Source: Muribaculaceae bacterium (GTDB taxonomy: Bacteria; Bacteroidota; Bacteroidia; Bacteroidales; Muribaculaceae). Taken from it: DNA of 64,000 nt. The translations under genes and the position numbers were made by a program. Below, one piece after another: positions 38,922 through 44,493 of this stretch. The stretch is from the NCBI GenBank assembly GCA_017620635.1, contig JAGAUV010000022.1:34842-98841 (forward strand), written 5' to 3'. How positions within the stretch are numbered: the first letter of the stretch is position 1; each line of letters opens with the position of its first letter. The notes under the pieces were generated by a model, which worked only from the letters and a program-made list of their open reading frames with translations, was not told where the DNA came from and did not search any database.

Positions 38922-40136
38922 TTAGTCGAGATGCTCAAAAAAAGTTGAGGTATTCGCGATAAAAATGTCGTTTGCGGCAAGCTGCGGGCGACGGGCGATG
39001 AGTTCGCTCAGCAGTATGTCGCCTATCACATAGCACGAGTCGTCGGATATGTATTGCTCGTGTATCTTGCTGAATGGCAGTATGTCGAGCACCGGTGTGG
39101 TACGGTAGCGCACGTAGATTCGCAGTGTTATGTCGGTGGTGTATGACGGACGGTCGAGATAGTGCATCTTTTTATACTCGTAGCGGTAGTCGTGGCGGCG
39201 TGCCATGATGTCGCTAAGTATCGACGAGGCAGTAGGAAGCGATCCGGCGCCTTTGCCGAACATGAACTGACGGTCGTAGCATTCGCCGCGGACAACCACG
39301 CCGTTGTACTCGTCGTCGACGCTGTAGATATACTTGTTCGACCGCACGAACTCGGGCATCACAAACATGGTAAAACAACCGTTGCCCACCTTGGCCACTT
39401 GCGCCACGAGCTTGATCTTGACACGTTTCTCCCGTGCATAGCGTATGTCGGAATCGTGTATCGAAGATATTCCGTAGGTAAAGATATCGTCGGGGCTGAC
39501 ATATACTCCGAGGGCGTGAACGGTAATTATTACGAGTTTGAAGAGCGAGTCGAAGCCTTCGATATCGAATGTCGGATCGCTTTCGGCAAAGCCGAGCGCC
39601 TGTGCCTTGGCAAGAGCGTCGCTGTAGCTCTCGCCATGGTCGAATACACGTGAGAGTATATAGTTCGACGATCCGTTGAGTATGCCTTTTACCTCGAGCA
39701 GCAGGTCGTTGTCGTAGTACTCCTCGAGGTTTCTGATCACGGGTATCGAGCCGCACGACGAGGCGTCGTAGAGCAGGGCGGTGTCGTGCCGGCGCTGAAG
39801 CTCGATAAGTTCGGGCAGATGTCGGGCTATCATGGCCTTGTTGCCCGACACTACGGGTATGCCGCGGCGTAGCGCCGAGCTTACTATCCTGTAGGATGCC
39901 TCGGCATTGTCGATGACCTCTACTATGAGGTCGATGTCGTCGGCATGCAGTATCTCGTCGGCATTGTCGGTAAGCAGTCCGGCCGGTATTTCTACAGATC
40001 GGGGCTTGTTGATGTCGCGGACGCATATGCGGCGGATCTCGGCGTGAGCGTTGGGGGCTTTCTTTATTACCTGATATATGCCTTGGCCAACAACGCCAAA
40101 GCCGAACAGGCCTATTCGTATCTTGTTATTATCCAT
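38922..40136 (-). CDS. hom: Homoserine dehydrogenase
   Basis: A 404-residue NAD(P)-dependent enzyme reducing aspartate semialdehyde to homoserine. The nucleotide site is IGLFGFGVVGQGIYQVI (residues 6-22). The catalytic domain has SGNKAMIARHLPEL, YDASSCGSIPVIRNLEEY and LKGILNGSSNYILSRVF-type stretches (GILNGSSNYIL is the family signature). No aspartokinase domain is fused and the C-terminus is a short extension, not a full ACT domain. It is third in metY-metX-hom, overlapping metX by 8 bp, so homoserine supply is tied to methionine synthesis here. Confidence 0.95.
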   Translation of the reverse strand: MDNNKIRIGLFGFGVVGQGIYQVIKKAPNAHAEIRRICVRDINKPRSVEIPAGLLTDNADEILHADDIDLIVEVIDNAEASYRIVSSALRRGIPVVSGNKAMIARHLPELIELQRRHDTALLYDASSCGSIPVIRNLEEYYDNDLLLEVKGILNGSSNYILSRVFDHGESYSDALAKAQALGFAESDPTFDIEGFDSLFKLVIITVHALGVYVSPDDIFTYGISSIHDSDIRYAREKRVKIKLVAQVAKVGNGCFTMFVMPEFVRSNKYIYSVDDEYNGVVVRGECYDRQFMFGKGAGSLPTASSILSDIMARRHDYRYEYKKMHYLDRPSYTTDITLRIYVRYRTTPVLDILPFSKIHEQYISDDSCYVIGDILLSELIARRPQLAANDIFIANTSTFFEHLD

Positions 40137-41154
40137 TTATGAAGGGTGTCAGTATTTCGTTCAGTTGTCGGTGCTCGACCAGGAAACCGTCGTGGCCGAA
40201 GGGGCTTGTTATCTCTCTGTACTCTGCGCCCGGTATCTTCGATGCCAGCTCTTTCATCTCTGCCGGGGTAAAGATGATGTCGGTCGATATGCCGACGACC
40301 GTTGTCGGGCACGGGATGGCTGCGAGTACCTTGTCTACGCCGCCGCGATTGCGCCCGATGTCGTGTGTGTCGAAGGCATCGAGAATGGCGACATAGGAGT
40401 ATGCGTTGTAGCGGCGCACAAGTTTCTCGCCCTGATACTGCTGGTATGTGCAGGCGCGGTGTGTCATGAACGTCTCGCCGCTCTCCTTGTCCTGCTGGCT
40501 CAGATTATAGCCTTCCGGTCCGCGGTATGTCAGCAGCCCTATGGCACGTGCCGCCGCGAGGCCGGCCTGTGCGGCGTCGGGTCGTGGCTCGCCCCAGCTG
40601 CTGTCGCTCTTGATCGCCATGCGCTGCGTCTCGTCTATGGCTATGGTCCATGGCGATGCCTTGGCGTCGGTGGCTATGAGTATGAGCCTGTCGAAGCGCT
40701 GAGGCTCGCGCGCTATCCACTCCAGAGCCTGGAAACCGCCCACCGAGCTGCCTACGAGCGCATGTATGCCCTTGATGCCGAGCATGCCGGCCAGCAGTCG
40801 GTGGCCCTCCACGATGTCGCCTATCGTATAGCGCGGAAACTTATCGTAATATGGCCGCCCCGTCGCCGGATTGTTGTGTAGCGGACCTGTGGTGCCGTAG
40901 TGCGACCCGAGGATGTTGGCGCATACCACATACCATTTCTCCGGATCGAGAAAAGCGCCTTCTTCCACGGTGTGCGGCCACCAGTCGGCCACATCGCTGT
41001 TGGCGGTAAGGGCATGGCATACCCACACCACATTGTCGCGTGCCTCGTTGAGCTTTCCGTAGCTGTGGTAGGCTATAGTCAGTTCGGGCAGCACCTCGCC
41101 CGATTCGAGGCGGAAGGGCTGATGGCTGCGTATTATGACCGGTTCACTCGACAT
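40129..41154 (-). CDS. metX: Homoserine O-acetyltransferase
   Basis: A 341-residue alpha/beta-hydrolase that acetylates homoserine from acetyl-CoA, activating it for sulfhydrylation. Nucleophile Ser137 lies in HALVGSSVGGFQALEW. The oxyanion segment is VCHALTANSD (about 45-54). The acid and His are in VGISTDIIFTPAEMKELA and EITSPFGHDGFL. The family stretch NILGSHYGTTGPLHNNPATGRPY is clear. It overlaps metY by 11 bp and hom by 8 bp. No C-terminal MetW or CBS extension. Confidence 0.95.
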   Translation of the reverse strand: MSSEPVIIRSHQPFRLESGEVLPELTIAYHSYGKLNEARDNVVWVCHALTANSDVADWWPHTVEEGAFLDPEKWYVVCANILGSHYGTTGPLHNNPATGRPYYDKFPRYTIGDIVEGHRLLAGMLGIKGIHALVGSSVGGFQALEWIAREPQRFDRLILIATDAKASPWTIAIDETQRMAIKSDSSWGEPRPDAAQAGLAAARAIGLLTYRGPEGYNLSQQDKESGETFMTHRACTYQQYQGEKLVRRYNAYSYVAILDAFDTHDIGRNRGGVDKVLAAIPCPTTVVGISTDIIFTPAEMKELASKIPGAEYREITSPFGHDGFLVEHRQLNEILTPFING

Positions 41155-42430
41155 GGCTGAATGCTTGTTCGAAATCGTCGATTATGTCTTCCACGTCCTC
41201 GAGGCCGAGCGATATGCGCAGCAGGGTAGGTGTCACGCCGGCGGCCTCGAGGTCGGCCTCGCTGAGCTGTTTGTGTGTGGTCGACGCCGGATGTGTGACA
41301 ACGGTTATCGAGTCGCCTATCATGGTCATGTGGGCGGCGAGCTCGAGGGCTTCGACAAAGCGTACGGTAGTGTCGATGTTGCCTTTGAGCTCTACGTTGA
41401 GCACTGCAGAGGCGCCGAAACGATAGTATTTTTTCGCTGTTTCGTGGCTCGGATGGTCCTCAAAACCTACATAGCTGACTTTCTTGACCTTGGGATGAGC
41501 CTTGAGGTATTCGGCAAGCCGGCGCGTCGATTCTACCTCATGGCGTACGCGCAGCGACAGTGTCTCCAGACCAAGCATCATCAGATAGGAGTCGAAGGGA
41601 GAGGGGCAGCAGCCGAAGTCGCGCAGACCGCCTGTGCGGCATTTGGCGATAAAGGCTGCCGGGCCGAAGGCATCAGTGTACACCAGGCCGTGATAGCTCT
41701 CGTCGGGTGTCGACAGCTGAAGGAATTTGCCGTTGGCCCAGTCGAATCTGCCGCCGTCGACTATTATACCGCCCATGGCGGTGCCGTGGCCGTTGATCCA
41801 TTTTGTTGCCGAGTCGACAATTATATCCGCGCCCCAGTCGAAAGGATTGCACAGATAGCCGGCCGCGCCGAATGTGTTGTCGACGATAAACGGCACCCCG
41901 TGGCGGTGGGCTACAGCGGCTATAGGCTCGAGATCGGGCACGTTGCATGTGGGGTTGCCCATGCTTTCTACGTACACCGCGCGAGTGTTGTCGTCGATAA
42001 GCTTTTCGATGTCGGCTGCCGACTCGGTGGCGGCTATGCGCACGTCGATGCCGAGCTTGCGCAGCGAGTGGCGGAACTGGTTGTACGTGCCGCCGTAGAG
42101 GAACGGCGAGGCCACTATGTTCTGTCTTTTTTCCACAAGGGCTGTGACAGTGATCAGTATCGAGCTCATGCCCGAGGCTACGGCGAGAGCGCCGACACCG
42201 CCGTAGAGCGCCGCGATGCGTTCCTCGTAGGCCGAGTTGGTCGGGTTCTGCAGACGGGTGTATATGTTGCCGGCCTCGCTGAGCTCGAAGAGCCGGGCGG
42301 CATGGTCGCAGGTCTTGAAGCGGTAGGCGGCGGTGGGGTAGATAGCCGCGCCACGGGCGCCGGTTTCGGGAGTGTGGTCGAGGCCGGCGTGTATCTGTCG
42401 GGTAGAGAATCGTAGTTTGCTGTAGTCCAT
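41144..42430 (-). CDS. metY: O-acetylhomoserine sulfhydrylase
   Basis: A 428-residue PLP enzyme that makes homocysteine from O-acetylhomoserine and sulfide. PLP-binding Lys210 is in IIVDSATKWINGHGTAMGG. Substrate loops YTRLQNPTNSAYEERIAALYGG and ASGMSSILITV, and the C-terminal SLGLEDVEDIIDDFEQAF, are family-typical. The length (about 430) and the long insert after Lys separate MetY from the shorter cystathionine gamma-synthase. First structural gene of metY-metX-hom, 35 bp after the U-tract of an attenuator; it therefore carries the main control point. Confidence 0.95.
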   Translation of the reverse strand: MDYSKLRFSTRQIHAGLDHTPETGARGAAIYPTAAYRFKTCDHAARLFELSEAGNIYTRLQNPTNSAYEERIAALYGGVGALAVASGMSSILITVTALVEKRQNIVASPFLYGGTYNQFRHSLRKLGIDVRIAATESAADIEKLIDDNTRAVYVESMGNPTCNVPDLEPIAAVAHRHGVPFIVDNTFGAAGYLCNPFDWGADIIVDSATKWINGHGTAMGGIIVDGGRFDWANGKFLQLSTPDESYHGLVYTDAFGPAAFIAKCRTGGLRDFGCCPSPFDSYLMMLGLETLSLRVRHEVESTRRLAEYLKAHPKVKKVSYVGFEDHPSHETAKKYYRFGASAVLNVELKGNIDTTVRFVEALELAAHMTMIGDSITVVTHPASTTHKQLSEADLEAAGVTPTLLRISLGLEDVEDIIDDFEQAFSHVE

Positions 42431-42464
42431 ATCTGTTTATAGTTTTGTTTTCTATCGTGGGTAT

Positions 42465-42535
42465 AAAAAAACCGGCCCCATGACGGAGCCGGATTCTATT
42501 GAATAAGCATGTCAATATTCACACCCGGCTCCGTC
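42465..42535 (-). promoter_or_regulatory. Methionine-responsive transcription attenuator (terminator/antiterminator pair)
   Basis: Minus-strand RNA can form two exclusive structures. Antiterminator: GACGGAGCCGG (42525-42535) with CCGGCTCCGTC (42482-42492), 11 perfect pairs. Terminator: CCGGCTCC (42485-42492) with GGGGCCGG (42472-42479), 8 pairs including one U-G, 5-nt loop, followed by seven U (42465-42471). The 5' antiterminator arm is also the Arg-Arg-Ser-Arg codons of the leader peptide, so a ribosome finishing that peptide masks it and permits termination. A ribosome stalled at the Met codons exposes it. The structures are read directly from the sequence; the regulation is inferred. Confidence 0.8.
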
Positions 42536-42620
42536 GGTTGCACATACGCATCATACCCATCATAGTCACGCTCATCAAGGGCGTGGCCGACATAAGATAA
42601 TATGAAGCGGATAAAGTCAT
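42519..42620 (-). CDS. Met-rich leader peptide of the metYX-hom operon
   Basis: A short ORF of 33 codons from the first ATG of the transcript (42620); in-frame ATGs at 42593 (24 codons) and 42575 (18 codons) are alternatives. The last 18 residues are MSVTMMGMMRMCNRRSRV, so six Met occur in eleven codons, far above chance. The stop TGA (42519-42521) falls just after the 5' arm of the antiterminator, the spacing expected of a control peptide such as TrpL. No Shine-Dalgarno is seen, as usual in this phylum. The peptide itself need have no function. Conservation in relatives would confirm the start. Confidence 0.75.
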   Translation of the reverse strand: MTLSASYYLMSATPLMSVTMMGMMRMCNRRSRV

Positions 42621-42649
42621 CGCTAAGCAGAGTGCTATGTTTTCGTCTG

Positions 42650-42680
42650 CAAAATTAGACACAAATTTTGTATTTGCAAA
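42650..42680 (-). promoter_or_regulatory. Promoter of the met operon leader
   Basis: Minus strand TTTG (42677-42680), 19 bp, TAATTTTG (42650-42657): perfect consensus. Transcription should start near 42644, giving a leader of about 210 nt before metY and about 23 nt before the leader peptide. Confidence 0.85.
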
Positions 42681-42792: not shown

Positions 42793-44493
42793 TCAGATAC
42801 CGTAGGCTGCGAGATCGGCGGTAGTGCAGTTGTCGATAAACTCGCAGTGGCGTGTTACTTCTGCGTCGATCATGCGTGTGTATACCTTGACTGTGTTGAC
42901 AAAGCTTTCGTTTGTCTTTGCGCTTACCAGCAGGAGGTATGCCATGATGATGTCGCCGGCCATTTCTACAAGGCGACGGGCGTTGAAGTCGAGATAAGCC
43001 TGGTCGTTGGCGTCGCTTACCTTCTTCACGGCAGCCTCATACTTGCCTGCCAGTACGGCGAGGCGCTCGGCCAGAGGCTCGAGCTCGCCGCTGAAGCCTT
43101 CGGCGGCATAGCTCTTCATCATGTCGAGATAGAGTCCGGTGGTAACGTAGCGGATAGCGGCTACAACCTGGAGCTGTGTGGTGCCTTCATAGATCGATGT
43201 GATGCGAGCGTCGCGGTAGAGGCGTTCGCAGGCGTAATCTTTCATGAAGCCCGAGCCGCCGTGGATCTGGATGCAGTCGTAGGCGTTCTGGTTGCAGTAT
43301 TCGCTGCCAAGACCTTTGGCAAGGGGAGTGAGGGCGTCGGCCAGACGGCTGTAGTGCTTCATCTCGGCGCGTTCGTCGGCTGTGAGGCTGCGTTCGCGTG
43401 CGATATCCTCGTAGATCTTGTACATGTCCACGAAGCGTGAGCATTCGTAGAGGAGGGCGCGGCTGGCGTCGAGTTTGGCCTTCATGGTGGCGAGCATCTC
43501 GCTTACGGCCGGGAACTCGATGATAGCTTTGCCGAACTGGCGGCGTTCGAGGGCGTACTGGTGTGCCTCGCGGTAGGCGAGTTCGCTGACGCCGACGCTC
43601 TGGGCGGCGATGCCGAGGCGTGCGCCGTTCATGAGTGCCATCACATATTTGATGAGGCCGAGACGGCGGTTGCCGCAAAGCTCGGCGGGAGCGTTCTTGT
43701 ACACGAGCTCGCATGTGGGCGAGCCCTTGATACCCATCTTGTTCTCGATGCGGCGTACGGTAACACCGCCGTTGCGCTTGTCGTAGATGAACATAGAGAG
43801 GCCGCGGCCGTCCTTTGTGCCTTCCTCACTACGGGCGAGGACGAGGTGTATGTCGCTGTCGCCGTTGGTAATGAAGCGTTTTACACCGTTGAGCACCCAT
43901 GTGCCGTCTTCCTTCTGTGTGGCCTTGAGCATCACGCTCTGGAGGTCGGAACCGGCGTCGGGCTCGGTAAGGTCCATCGACATGGTCTCGCCTTCGCATA
44001 CACGGGGTATGTACTTCTGGCGCTGCTCTTCGTTGCCGAACTCATAGAGTGTTTCGGCGCAGTCCTGCAGGCCCCAGAGGTTCTCGAAGCCGGTGTCGGC
44101 GCGGCTTACGATCTCGGCTGCCATGATGTAGGGTGTGATGGGGAAGTTCAGGCCGCCGAAACGACGGGGCATGGCCATACCCATCAGGCCGGCCTTGCGG
44201 CATACGTCGAGGTTCTCGACAGTAGCGTCGGCATAGTGTGCGCGGCCGTCGGAGCACGATGCGCCCTGATGGTCTACAGCCTCTGCGTTGCCGGCGATGG
44301 TGTTGCCGCAGATGTCGCCTACGATATCGAGCACACGCTCGTAGTTGTCCATCGCGTCGTTGTAGTCGGTGGGAGCGTAGTCGTATTTTTCAGCTTCGGT
44401 AAAGTTTCTTTCGCGTAACGCTACGATCTTCTCCATCAGGGGGTGGTGGAGATGGTGCTTGAGATCGGCGTTGTCTGTATAGAAGTTAGCCAT
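42793..44493 (-). CDS. Acyl-CoA dehydrogenase family protein
   Basis: A 566-residue FAD enzyme that desaturates an acyl-CoA and passes electrons to ETF, encoded just upstream. The N-terminal helical domain, the FAD/substrate strands (SMDLTEPDAGSDLQSVMLKA, GVKRFITNGDSDIHLVLARS) and the C-terminal helices (ERRQFGKAIIEFPAVSEML, CIQIHGGSGFMKDYACERLYRDARITSIYEGTTQLQ) are intact. The Glu of IYEGT is the usual catalytic base. A C-terminal extension of about 130 residues beyond the core makes it longer than butyryl-CoA dehydrogenase (about 380), resembling the long FadE-like forms of Bacteroidota. Substrate unknown. It starts 3 bp after etfA. Confidence 0.92.
   Translation of the reverse strand: MANFYTDNADLKHHLHHPLMEKIVALRERNFTEAEKYDYAPTDYNDAMDNYERVLDIVGDICGNTIAGNAEAVDHQGASCSDGRAHYADATVENLDVCRKAGLMGMAMPRRFGGLNFPITPYIMAAEIVSRADTGFENLWGLQDCAETLYEFGNEEQRQKYIPRVCEGETMSMDLTEPDAGSDLQSVMLKATQKEDGTWVLNGVKRFITNGDSDIHLVLARSEEGTKDGRGLSMFIYDKRNGGVTVRRIENKMGIKGSPTCELVYKNAPAELCGNRRLGLIKYVMALMNGARLGIAAQSVGVSELAYREAHQYALERRQFGKAIIEFPAVSEMLATMKAKLDASRALLYECSRFVDMYKIYEDIARERSLTADERAEMKHYSRLADALTPLAKGLGSEYCNQNAYDCIQIHGGSGFMKDYACERLYRDARITSIYEGTTQLQVVAAIRYVTTGLYLDMMKSYAAEGFSGELEPLAERLAVLAGKYEAAVKKVSDANDQAYLDFNARRLVEMAGDIIMAYLLLVSAKTNESFVNTVKVYTRMIDAEVTRHCEFIDNCTTADLAAYGI

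Follow-up and report, generated by a model that had tools for sequence, protein, structure and literature searches.

The trp, his, thr, leu, ilv, and phe attenuators of enterobacteria share a common plan. A leader ORF carries control codons for the amino acid made by the biosynthetic operon downstream, its stop codon lies beside segment 2, and the RNA segments can pair as 1:2, 2:3, or 3:4. Bacterial methionine genes are usually described as being controlled by SAM riboswitches, T-boxes, or repressors. Methionine seems the most awkward amino acid for leader-peptide attenuation, because the Met codon also starts proteins. Our searches of an open-access library turned up no description of leader-peptide attenuation by Met. 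One study records no conserved RNA structure 5' of methionine operons in Actinobacteria (PMC1262725), and another mentions leader-peptide-like small ORFs in B. thetaiotaomicron in general terms (PMC7366714).

Here, we describe a leader that follows the enterobacterial plan in front of a metY-metX-hom operon. It lies in a 64,000-nt stretch of Muribaculaceae DNA (the window). Judged from its sequence and those of relatives, it is very probably a ribosome-mediated transcription attenuator that reads methionine via elongator Met-tRNA.

The leader of the metY-metX-hom operon

A sequence-only reading of the window had described a promoter at 42650-42680, a leader ORF that packs six Met into eleven codons, and two mutually exclusive hairpins: an antiterminator with an 11-bp arm in Arg-Arg-Ser-Arg codons and a terminator followed by seven T. 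All were present on the minus strand as described (Table 1). The promoter element at 42650..42680 fits the Bacteroidetes-type consensus (TTTG/TAnnTTTG). The leader peptide ends in TMMGMMRMCNRRSRV, followed by the stop codon. Arm 2 (42535-42525) is complementary to arm 3 (42492-42482) over 11 bp, and the terminator stem pairs CCGGCTCC (42492-42485) with GGGGCCGG (42479-42472), including one G-U pair. The first eight bases of arm 3 are also the 5' arm of the terminator, and the hairpins are mutually exclusive. We also found a third, more weakly supported helix, 1:2, which was absent from the earlier description. It pairs UGCA-N-CCG with CGG-N-UGUA and would compete with helix 2:3.

Table 1. Features of the leader and its operon in the window
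Feature	Position	Strand	Details
Bacteroidetes-type promoter	42650..42680	-	TTTG 42680-42677, 19-nt spacer, TAATTTTG 42657-42650
Met-rich leader ORF, 33 codons + TGA	42519..42620	-	ATG 42620, peptide MTLSASYYLMSATPLMSVTMMGMMRMCNRRSRV, then stop
Control codons	42543..42575	-	six Met in eleven codons, M-S-V-T-M-M-G-M-M-R-M
Segment 1, TGCA-A-CCG	42535..42542	-	5' side of helix 1:2
Segment 2 (arm 2), GACGGAGCCGG	42525..42535	-	antiterminator 5' arm, within the Arg-Arg-Ser-Arg codons, among the last of the leader
Segment 3 (arm 3), CCGGCTCCGTC	42482..42492	-	common to antiterminator and terminator
Segment 4, GGGGCCGG (42479-42472) + seven T (42471-42465)	42465..42479	-	intrinsic terminator 3' arm
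metY, O-acetylhomoserine sulfhydrylase	41144..42430	-	TIGR01326, 571 bits (cut-off 495.1)
metX, homoserine O-acetyltransferase	40129..41154	-	best family TIGR01392, 335 bits (below curated cut-off of 500)
hom, homoserine dehydrogenase	38922..40136	-	NF004976, 310.2 bits (cut-off 205)

The metY ORF starts at 42430. It overlaps metX by 11 nt, and metX overlaps hom by 8 nt. Protein family matches back the names given in the sequence-only reading, with a metX score below its curated cut-off. On the other side of the leader, at 42769-42732 on the minus strand, AACGGTGCCCC / GGGGCACCGTT and a T run lie 3' of the ORF at 42793-44493. This repeat looks like the terminator of that ORF, setting that gene apart from the leader promoter.

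Met-rich leaders in relatives

We compared 65 upstream regions of metY homologues (identity of about 65% or more), taken from genomes of the family, genomes of the order, and named genomes. Thirty-four had a leader of the window's design (type A), 8 had a leader ending in MRMCR and a stop codon with another structure (type B), and 23 had neither; in several of these 23, metY lies directly behind another gene, as judged by eye. Within the family (43 loci), there were 31 type-A leaders, 1 type-B leader, and 11 loci with neither. Two type-A leaders, L065 and L066, came from Alistipes records. Because the sample contains one duplicate (L083/L146, identical) and one pair that is 99% alike (L070/L071), 63 of the 65 regions are independent; all four of these loci are in the "neither" class, and none is Met-rich. 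No pair among the 34 type-A leaders is 90% alike over 120 nt.

An upstream ORF was scored as Met-rich if it had at least four internal Met within a 12-codon window. Such ORFs preceded metY in 40 of the 65 loci (33 type A and 7 type B). By the same criterion, 6 of 604 upstream regions of other long ORFs scored, as did 5 of the 1950 dinucleotide-shuffled sequences and 1 of the 65 reverse strands. Three of the six Met-rich control regions (L093, L103, and L111) turned out to be upstream of distant metY genes. L067, which is cut by a contig end, was placed in type A by hand despite a score of 3, and L086 (MMRMCR, then stop), which scored 2, was assigned to type B by eye.

Within the type-A leaders, codons -14, -10, and -8, counted back from the stop, are each Met in 30 of the 34. 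Met makes up 220 of the 1060 internal residues, with 3 to 10 internal Met in every one of the 34, and leader length is 30 to 36 amino acids in 25. Of the 32 leaders whose upstream sequence is long enough, 27 have TAnnTTTG no more than 110 nt 5' of the ATG, compared with about 5% of shuffles. Three leader peptides were searched against the NCBIfam models, with no match.

Gene neighbors were checked in 52 of the 65 loci (30 type A and 22 others; the short loci L140-L152 were left out). In 29 of the 30 type-A loci, metX follows metY. Leaders of the window's design also lie directly 5' of metX in 4 of 14 metX loci that have no metY match (L202, L208, L213, and L218, in genomes G419, G458, G665, and G690), and a hom ORF follows metX in G419 and G458. 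Therefore, the leader can accompany the Met operon rather than metY itself. The other 10 of these 14 loci had no Met leader, and one of them (L223) ends early at a contig end. The genes downstream make the amino acid that would be sensed, metY-metX-hom in the window and metX in the metX-only loci. Locus L197 (1067-1481) has a strong type-A leader at 93.5 bits and, behind it, only a partial metY match (50% identical) and then metX; this metY may be decaying, or the contig may be misassembled.

The sequence-only reading had named relatives with the hairpins but no Met codons as evidence against it. None was seen, and all 34 hairpin leaders have internal Met. Because the leaders had been selected by their Met content, hairpin-bearing relatives lacking Met could have escaped this comparison. 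A model search, in which Met is not a condition, had no hairpins lacking Met codons among its strong matches. It matched 28 of 247 genomes of the family (24 judged real) and 9 of 237 genomes of the order (2 judged real), and the window's own genome had one convincing copy. Five weak matches elsewhere in that genome (L161-L165, E of 0.28 to 0.88) were rejected, with no metY or metX nearby. Two further groups, L225-L231 outside the family (E of 1e-5 to 1e-3) and the weak matches L189-L193 inside it, had no type-A leader, although some are ATG-rich. There was no metY or metX in the stretch examined, and so they were not counted as real.

Alternative helices and ribosome position

The 34 type-A leaders were aligned by MAFFT, with the alignment not fitted to any structure, and three helices were counted. 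In the antiterminator (2:3), 76.3% of the cells are paired and 41 are double-changed, compared with 19.4 ± 3.4 after shuffling; none of 500 shuffles reached this count, and sliding the arms gave at most 21. Roughly half or more of the sequences do not form its outer pairs (columns 63-66). In the terminator (3:4), 91.1% of the cells are paired and 26 are double-changed, compared with 8.8 ± 2.2 after shuffling (0 of 500 shuffles) and at most 10 when slid. Covariation in both helices supports a mutually exclusive antiterminator and intrinsic terminator with one common segment. Helix 1:2 is paired in 86.9% of cells and has 13 double-changed cells, compared with 6.6 ± 2.1 after shuffling (0 of 500). 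It exceeded all 500 shuffles in three of five measures and was not above them in the other two, and slides of +2 and +3 also gave 13 double-changed cells (with pairing of just 41.4 and 36.6%, compared with 86.9%). Therefore, it is the weakest of the three.

Six leaders have changed arm sequences with pairing kept (L038, L040 [weakly], L044, L047, L056, and L140). When scored against shuffled versions of arm 2, the arm 2 duplex was weak (z above -1) in 7 of 34 leaders (L003, L040, L043, L049, L051, L055, and L057). A separate table of arm cores differed from the alignment for L040, L053, and L152 and was not used for the counts. A stable fold of the leader before arm 3 was no commoner than chance (mean z of -0.19 in 34 leaders). 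The sequence-only reading had predicted that relatives would keep the Met runs and paired arms with compensatory changes as the peptide otherwise drifts, and the 34 aligned leaders behave in this way. Comparison of relatives' sequences shows the leader ORF, the Met positions, the alternative helices, and the gene context.

A ligand-binding riboswitch or T-box, with the ATG-rich stretch incidental, would be an alternative, and one study places methionine genes of other species under S-box control (PMC1262725). However, RNAalifold predicted only the terminator as the consensus fold of the alignment, and ORF length and Met positions are conserved. When all 4227 Rfam families, presumably including T-box, were searched against the leader, none reached its gathering score, and there was no match to RF00162, T-box, or RF01692. 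The sole two matches at E of 1 or less were to unrelated sRNA/snoRNA families, far below the cut-off. No Rfam family covers the leader in this search, which the sequence-only reading had called for, and the known SAM-riboswitch fold that would have spoken against it was not seen. The S-box SAM riboswitch was found in 0 of 119 family genomes by a search that was positive in 3 of 14 control genomes, including Bacillus subtilis. We regard a riboswitch or T-box as scarcely credible here.

Another explanation is ribosome arrest by a nascent peptide that itself senses methionine or SAM; what is read would then be the peptide sequence and not the Met codons. Ribosome arrest with peptide sensing in TnaC and plant CGS1 is the model for this. 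Many leaders do have a conserved C-terminal tail (S/N-R-x-S-R-V) after the Met run. However, the tail overlaps the helix arms and varies with them, and the choice at codon -7 between Cys (TGC) and Arg (CGC) goes in part with the base opposite it in the stop region (columns 47/78 are T-A in 14 leaders, C-G in 7, T-G in 5, C-A in 5, and something else in 3). Furthermore, L047, L048, L056, and L140 retain the Met run and the paired arms with quite different tails. We regard peptide sensing as very unlikely.

We also examined where ribosomes would lie on these leaders. In 29 of the 34 leaders, the end of arm 2 lies 1 to 7 nt ahead of that of the stop codon (the exceptions are L042, L048, L053, L057, and L152). 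Ribosome positions were modelled in 26 of the 34, with a footprint assumed to reach back 14 nt and forward 12 nt from the first A-site base; L042, L048, L056, L057, L066, and L140 were excluded by hand (arms shifted in the alignment or truncated), and L044 and L152 were skipped by the script. With a ribosome at the stop codon, the probability of helix 2:3 was 0.00 in all 26. With a ribosome at the last Met, its median was 0.90 before arm 4 is made. In the model, then, the stop codon is placed so that a finishing ribosome would cover segment 2 and a Met-stalled one would not.

The footprint also bears on the possibility that the leader senses cysteine, or sulfur amino acids in general, through Cys codons beside the Met codons. 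Cys is at -7 in 17 of 34 leaders and at -9 in 13 of 34, and distant metY leaders have Cys runs. However, L038, L040, and L047 have no Cys at these positions, internal Met is in every leader, and a ribosome at codon -7 would extend into arm 2 with the assumed footprint. This makes a Cys sensor very unlikely.

For the Met attenuator, placing a ribosome on the last Met did not keep the full-length equilibrium folds of most leaders from favoring the terminator (median of 0.85). Therefore, antitermination must be kinetic and decided during RNA synthesis. In the trp attenuator, antitermination is likewise decided while the RNA is being made. Free, untranslated leaders preferred helix 2:3 in most of the 26 (medians of 0.87 for 2:3 and 0.00 for 1:2), and so the model predicts read-through without translation. 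This is unlike the trp attenuator, which does not read through when its leader is not translated. The window's own leader behaves as a clean switch in the model, with terminator probabilities of 0.06 for a Met stall and 0.99 once the ribosome is at the stop, but in the free state it is antiterminated as well (0.95). The prediction for the window is that repression requires leader translation through to the stop codon.

We propose the following mechanism, in which leader translation, stalling on uncharged tRNA-Met, and regulated termination are what we infer from the sequences. Under a shortage of Met-tRNA, a ribosome on the leader would halt within the Met codons, 8 to 14 codons short of the stop. 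It would cover segment 1 and leave segment 2 free, and segment 2 would pair with segment 3 before segment 4 is made, so that the terminator could not form and transcription would continue into metY-metX-hom. With Met in good supply, the ribosome would reach the stop codon adjoining segment 2 and cover that segment. Segments 3 and 4 would then form the terminator, and the RNA would end near 42465. Covariation, Met positions, and gene context support the Met attenuator of the sequence-only reading, which is refined by helix 1:2 and by the need for kinetic antitermination.

Distant leaders and known systems

Other Met- or Cys-rich ORFs precede metY outside the family. Melioribacter record L103 (2600-2950) has two tandem Met leaders, MNLFVKNNISQKNLRSVMMCMMLFITKG with its stop codon and one ending in FFCIMMAMMCMSDLMREGII and a stop codon. 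Behind them are metY and two ORFs named from sequence, one aspartokinase-like and one metX-like. Close to its end, each leader has GAAGGG, which is complementary to the 5' arm of that leader's terminator, and the second leader matches model R1 (E of 1.6e-6 in a 22-locus search). This is a putative independent case with the same arm logic and two stacked Met attenuators. In a Draconibacterium record (L112, 1287-1464), an ORF ending in AMFMSSMYMSMR and a stop codon precedes an aspartokinase-like ORF (named from sequence) and then metY, and there is an inverted repeat at its stop codon.

Among distant metY loci (49 to 54% identical), 22 of 78 have an upstream ORF with at least four Cys plus Met in its last nine codons, compared with 2 of 226 controls. 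Of these 22, 21 (all but L027) were scanned with Rfam, and 20 have a SAM riboswitch (RF00162) 5' of metY (the exception is L017). In these RNAs (L091-L094, L096, L097, L102, L110, L111, L118, L123, L125, L129, L134, L136, L138, L139, and L020-L022), the Cys/Met run, for example CMCMCCCCC or MPLMPMCMR, belongs to the end of a short ORF that sits between RF00162 and metY. L089 and L012 have the riboswitch without a Cys/Met ORF. No terminators were clearly evident by eye behind the distant Cys/Met ORFs. Serial reading of SAM and of charged Cys/Met-tRNA on one RNA is possible.

The type-B leaders (L063, L077, L079, L081, L085, L086, L088, and L144) also lie before metY. Their end, ATGCGAATGTGCCGNTAGGCAC (MRMCR, then stop), is a tight hairpin whose loop holds the stop codon, and it hardly varies among the records, which are from Alistipes, Rikenellaceae, Tidjanibacter, and Prevotella. 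In several, a second hairpin with a UACG-like loop comes next (by eye), and these leaders have no consistent terminator. The exact pattern was found in 0 of 237 genomes of the order and in 1 of 61 in one genus, an already known genome.

We tentatively suggest, at somewhat less than even chance, that Met/Cys-rich leaders are a general control layer of direct-sulfhydrylation Met synthesis in Bacteroidota and neighboring phyla. Its forms would be a pure Met-codon attenuator without S-box in Muribaculaceae, a SAM riboswitch and then a Cys/Met ORF in series in many Sphingobacteriales/Cytophagales, and two stacked Met attenuators in Melioribacter. For a gut family whose searched genomes showed no S-box, a Met attenuator would fill a gap and give a direct readout of elongator Met-tRNA charging.

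T-box leaders also read tRNA-Met charging and control Met synthesis by premature termination. However, they bind the tRNA directly and have no leader peptide, and the leader described here has no T-box match. The staphylococcal met T-box leader reads initiator tRNA. The S-box (RF00162) also controls methionine genes and lies 5' of metY in other Bacteroidota, but its ligand is SAM, it does not need translation, and it was in none of the 119 family genomes. Bacteroid-trp RNA (RF01692) is presumably a trp leader. Like the Met leader, it is a conserved structured RNA of the Bacteroidetes phylum (listed in PMC2864571), but its gene set differs by its name, and our leader had no Rfam match. The cysS leader uORFC-8-2 of Rhodobacterales likewise combines an upstream ORF containing sulfur amino acid codons with an intrinsic terminator behind it, and ribosome-mediated attenuation is predicted for it; it differs in having two Cys codons, an aminoacyl-tRNA synthetase gene, and an alphaproteobacterial host (PMC8632094). 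The closest likeness in plan is to the enterobacterial attenuators. Here, the control codon is also the start codon, the phylum is different, and helix 1:2 is weaker. Even so, from its sequence features, the mechanism looks like attenuation of the trp type in which methionine is the amino acid being sensed.
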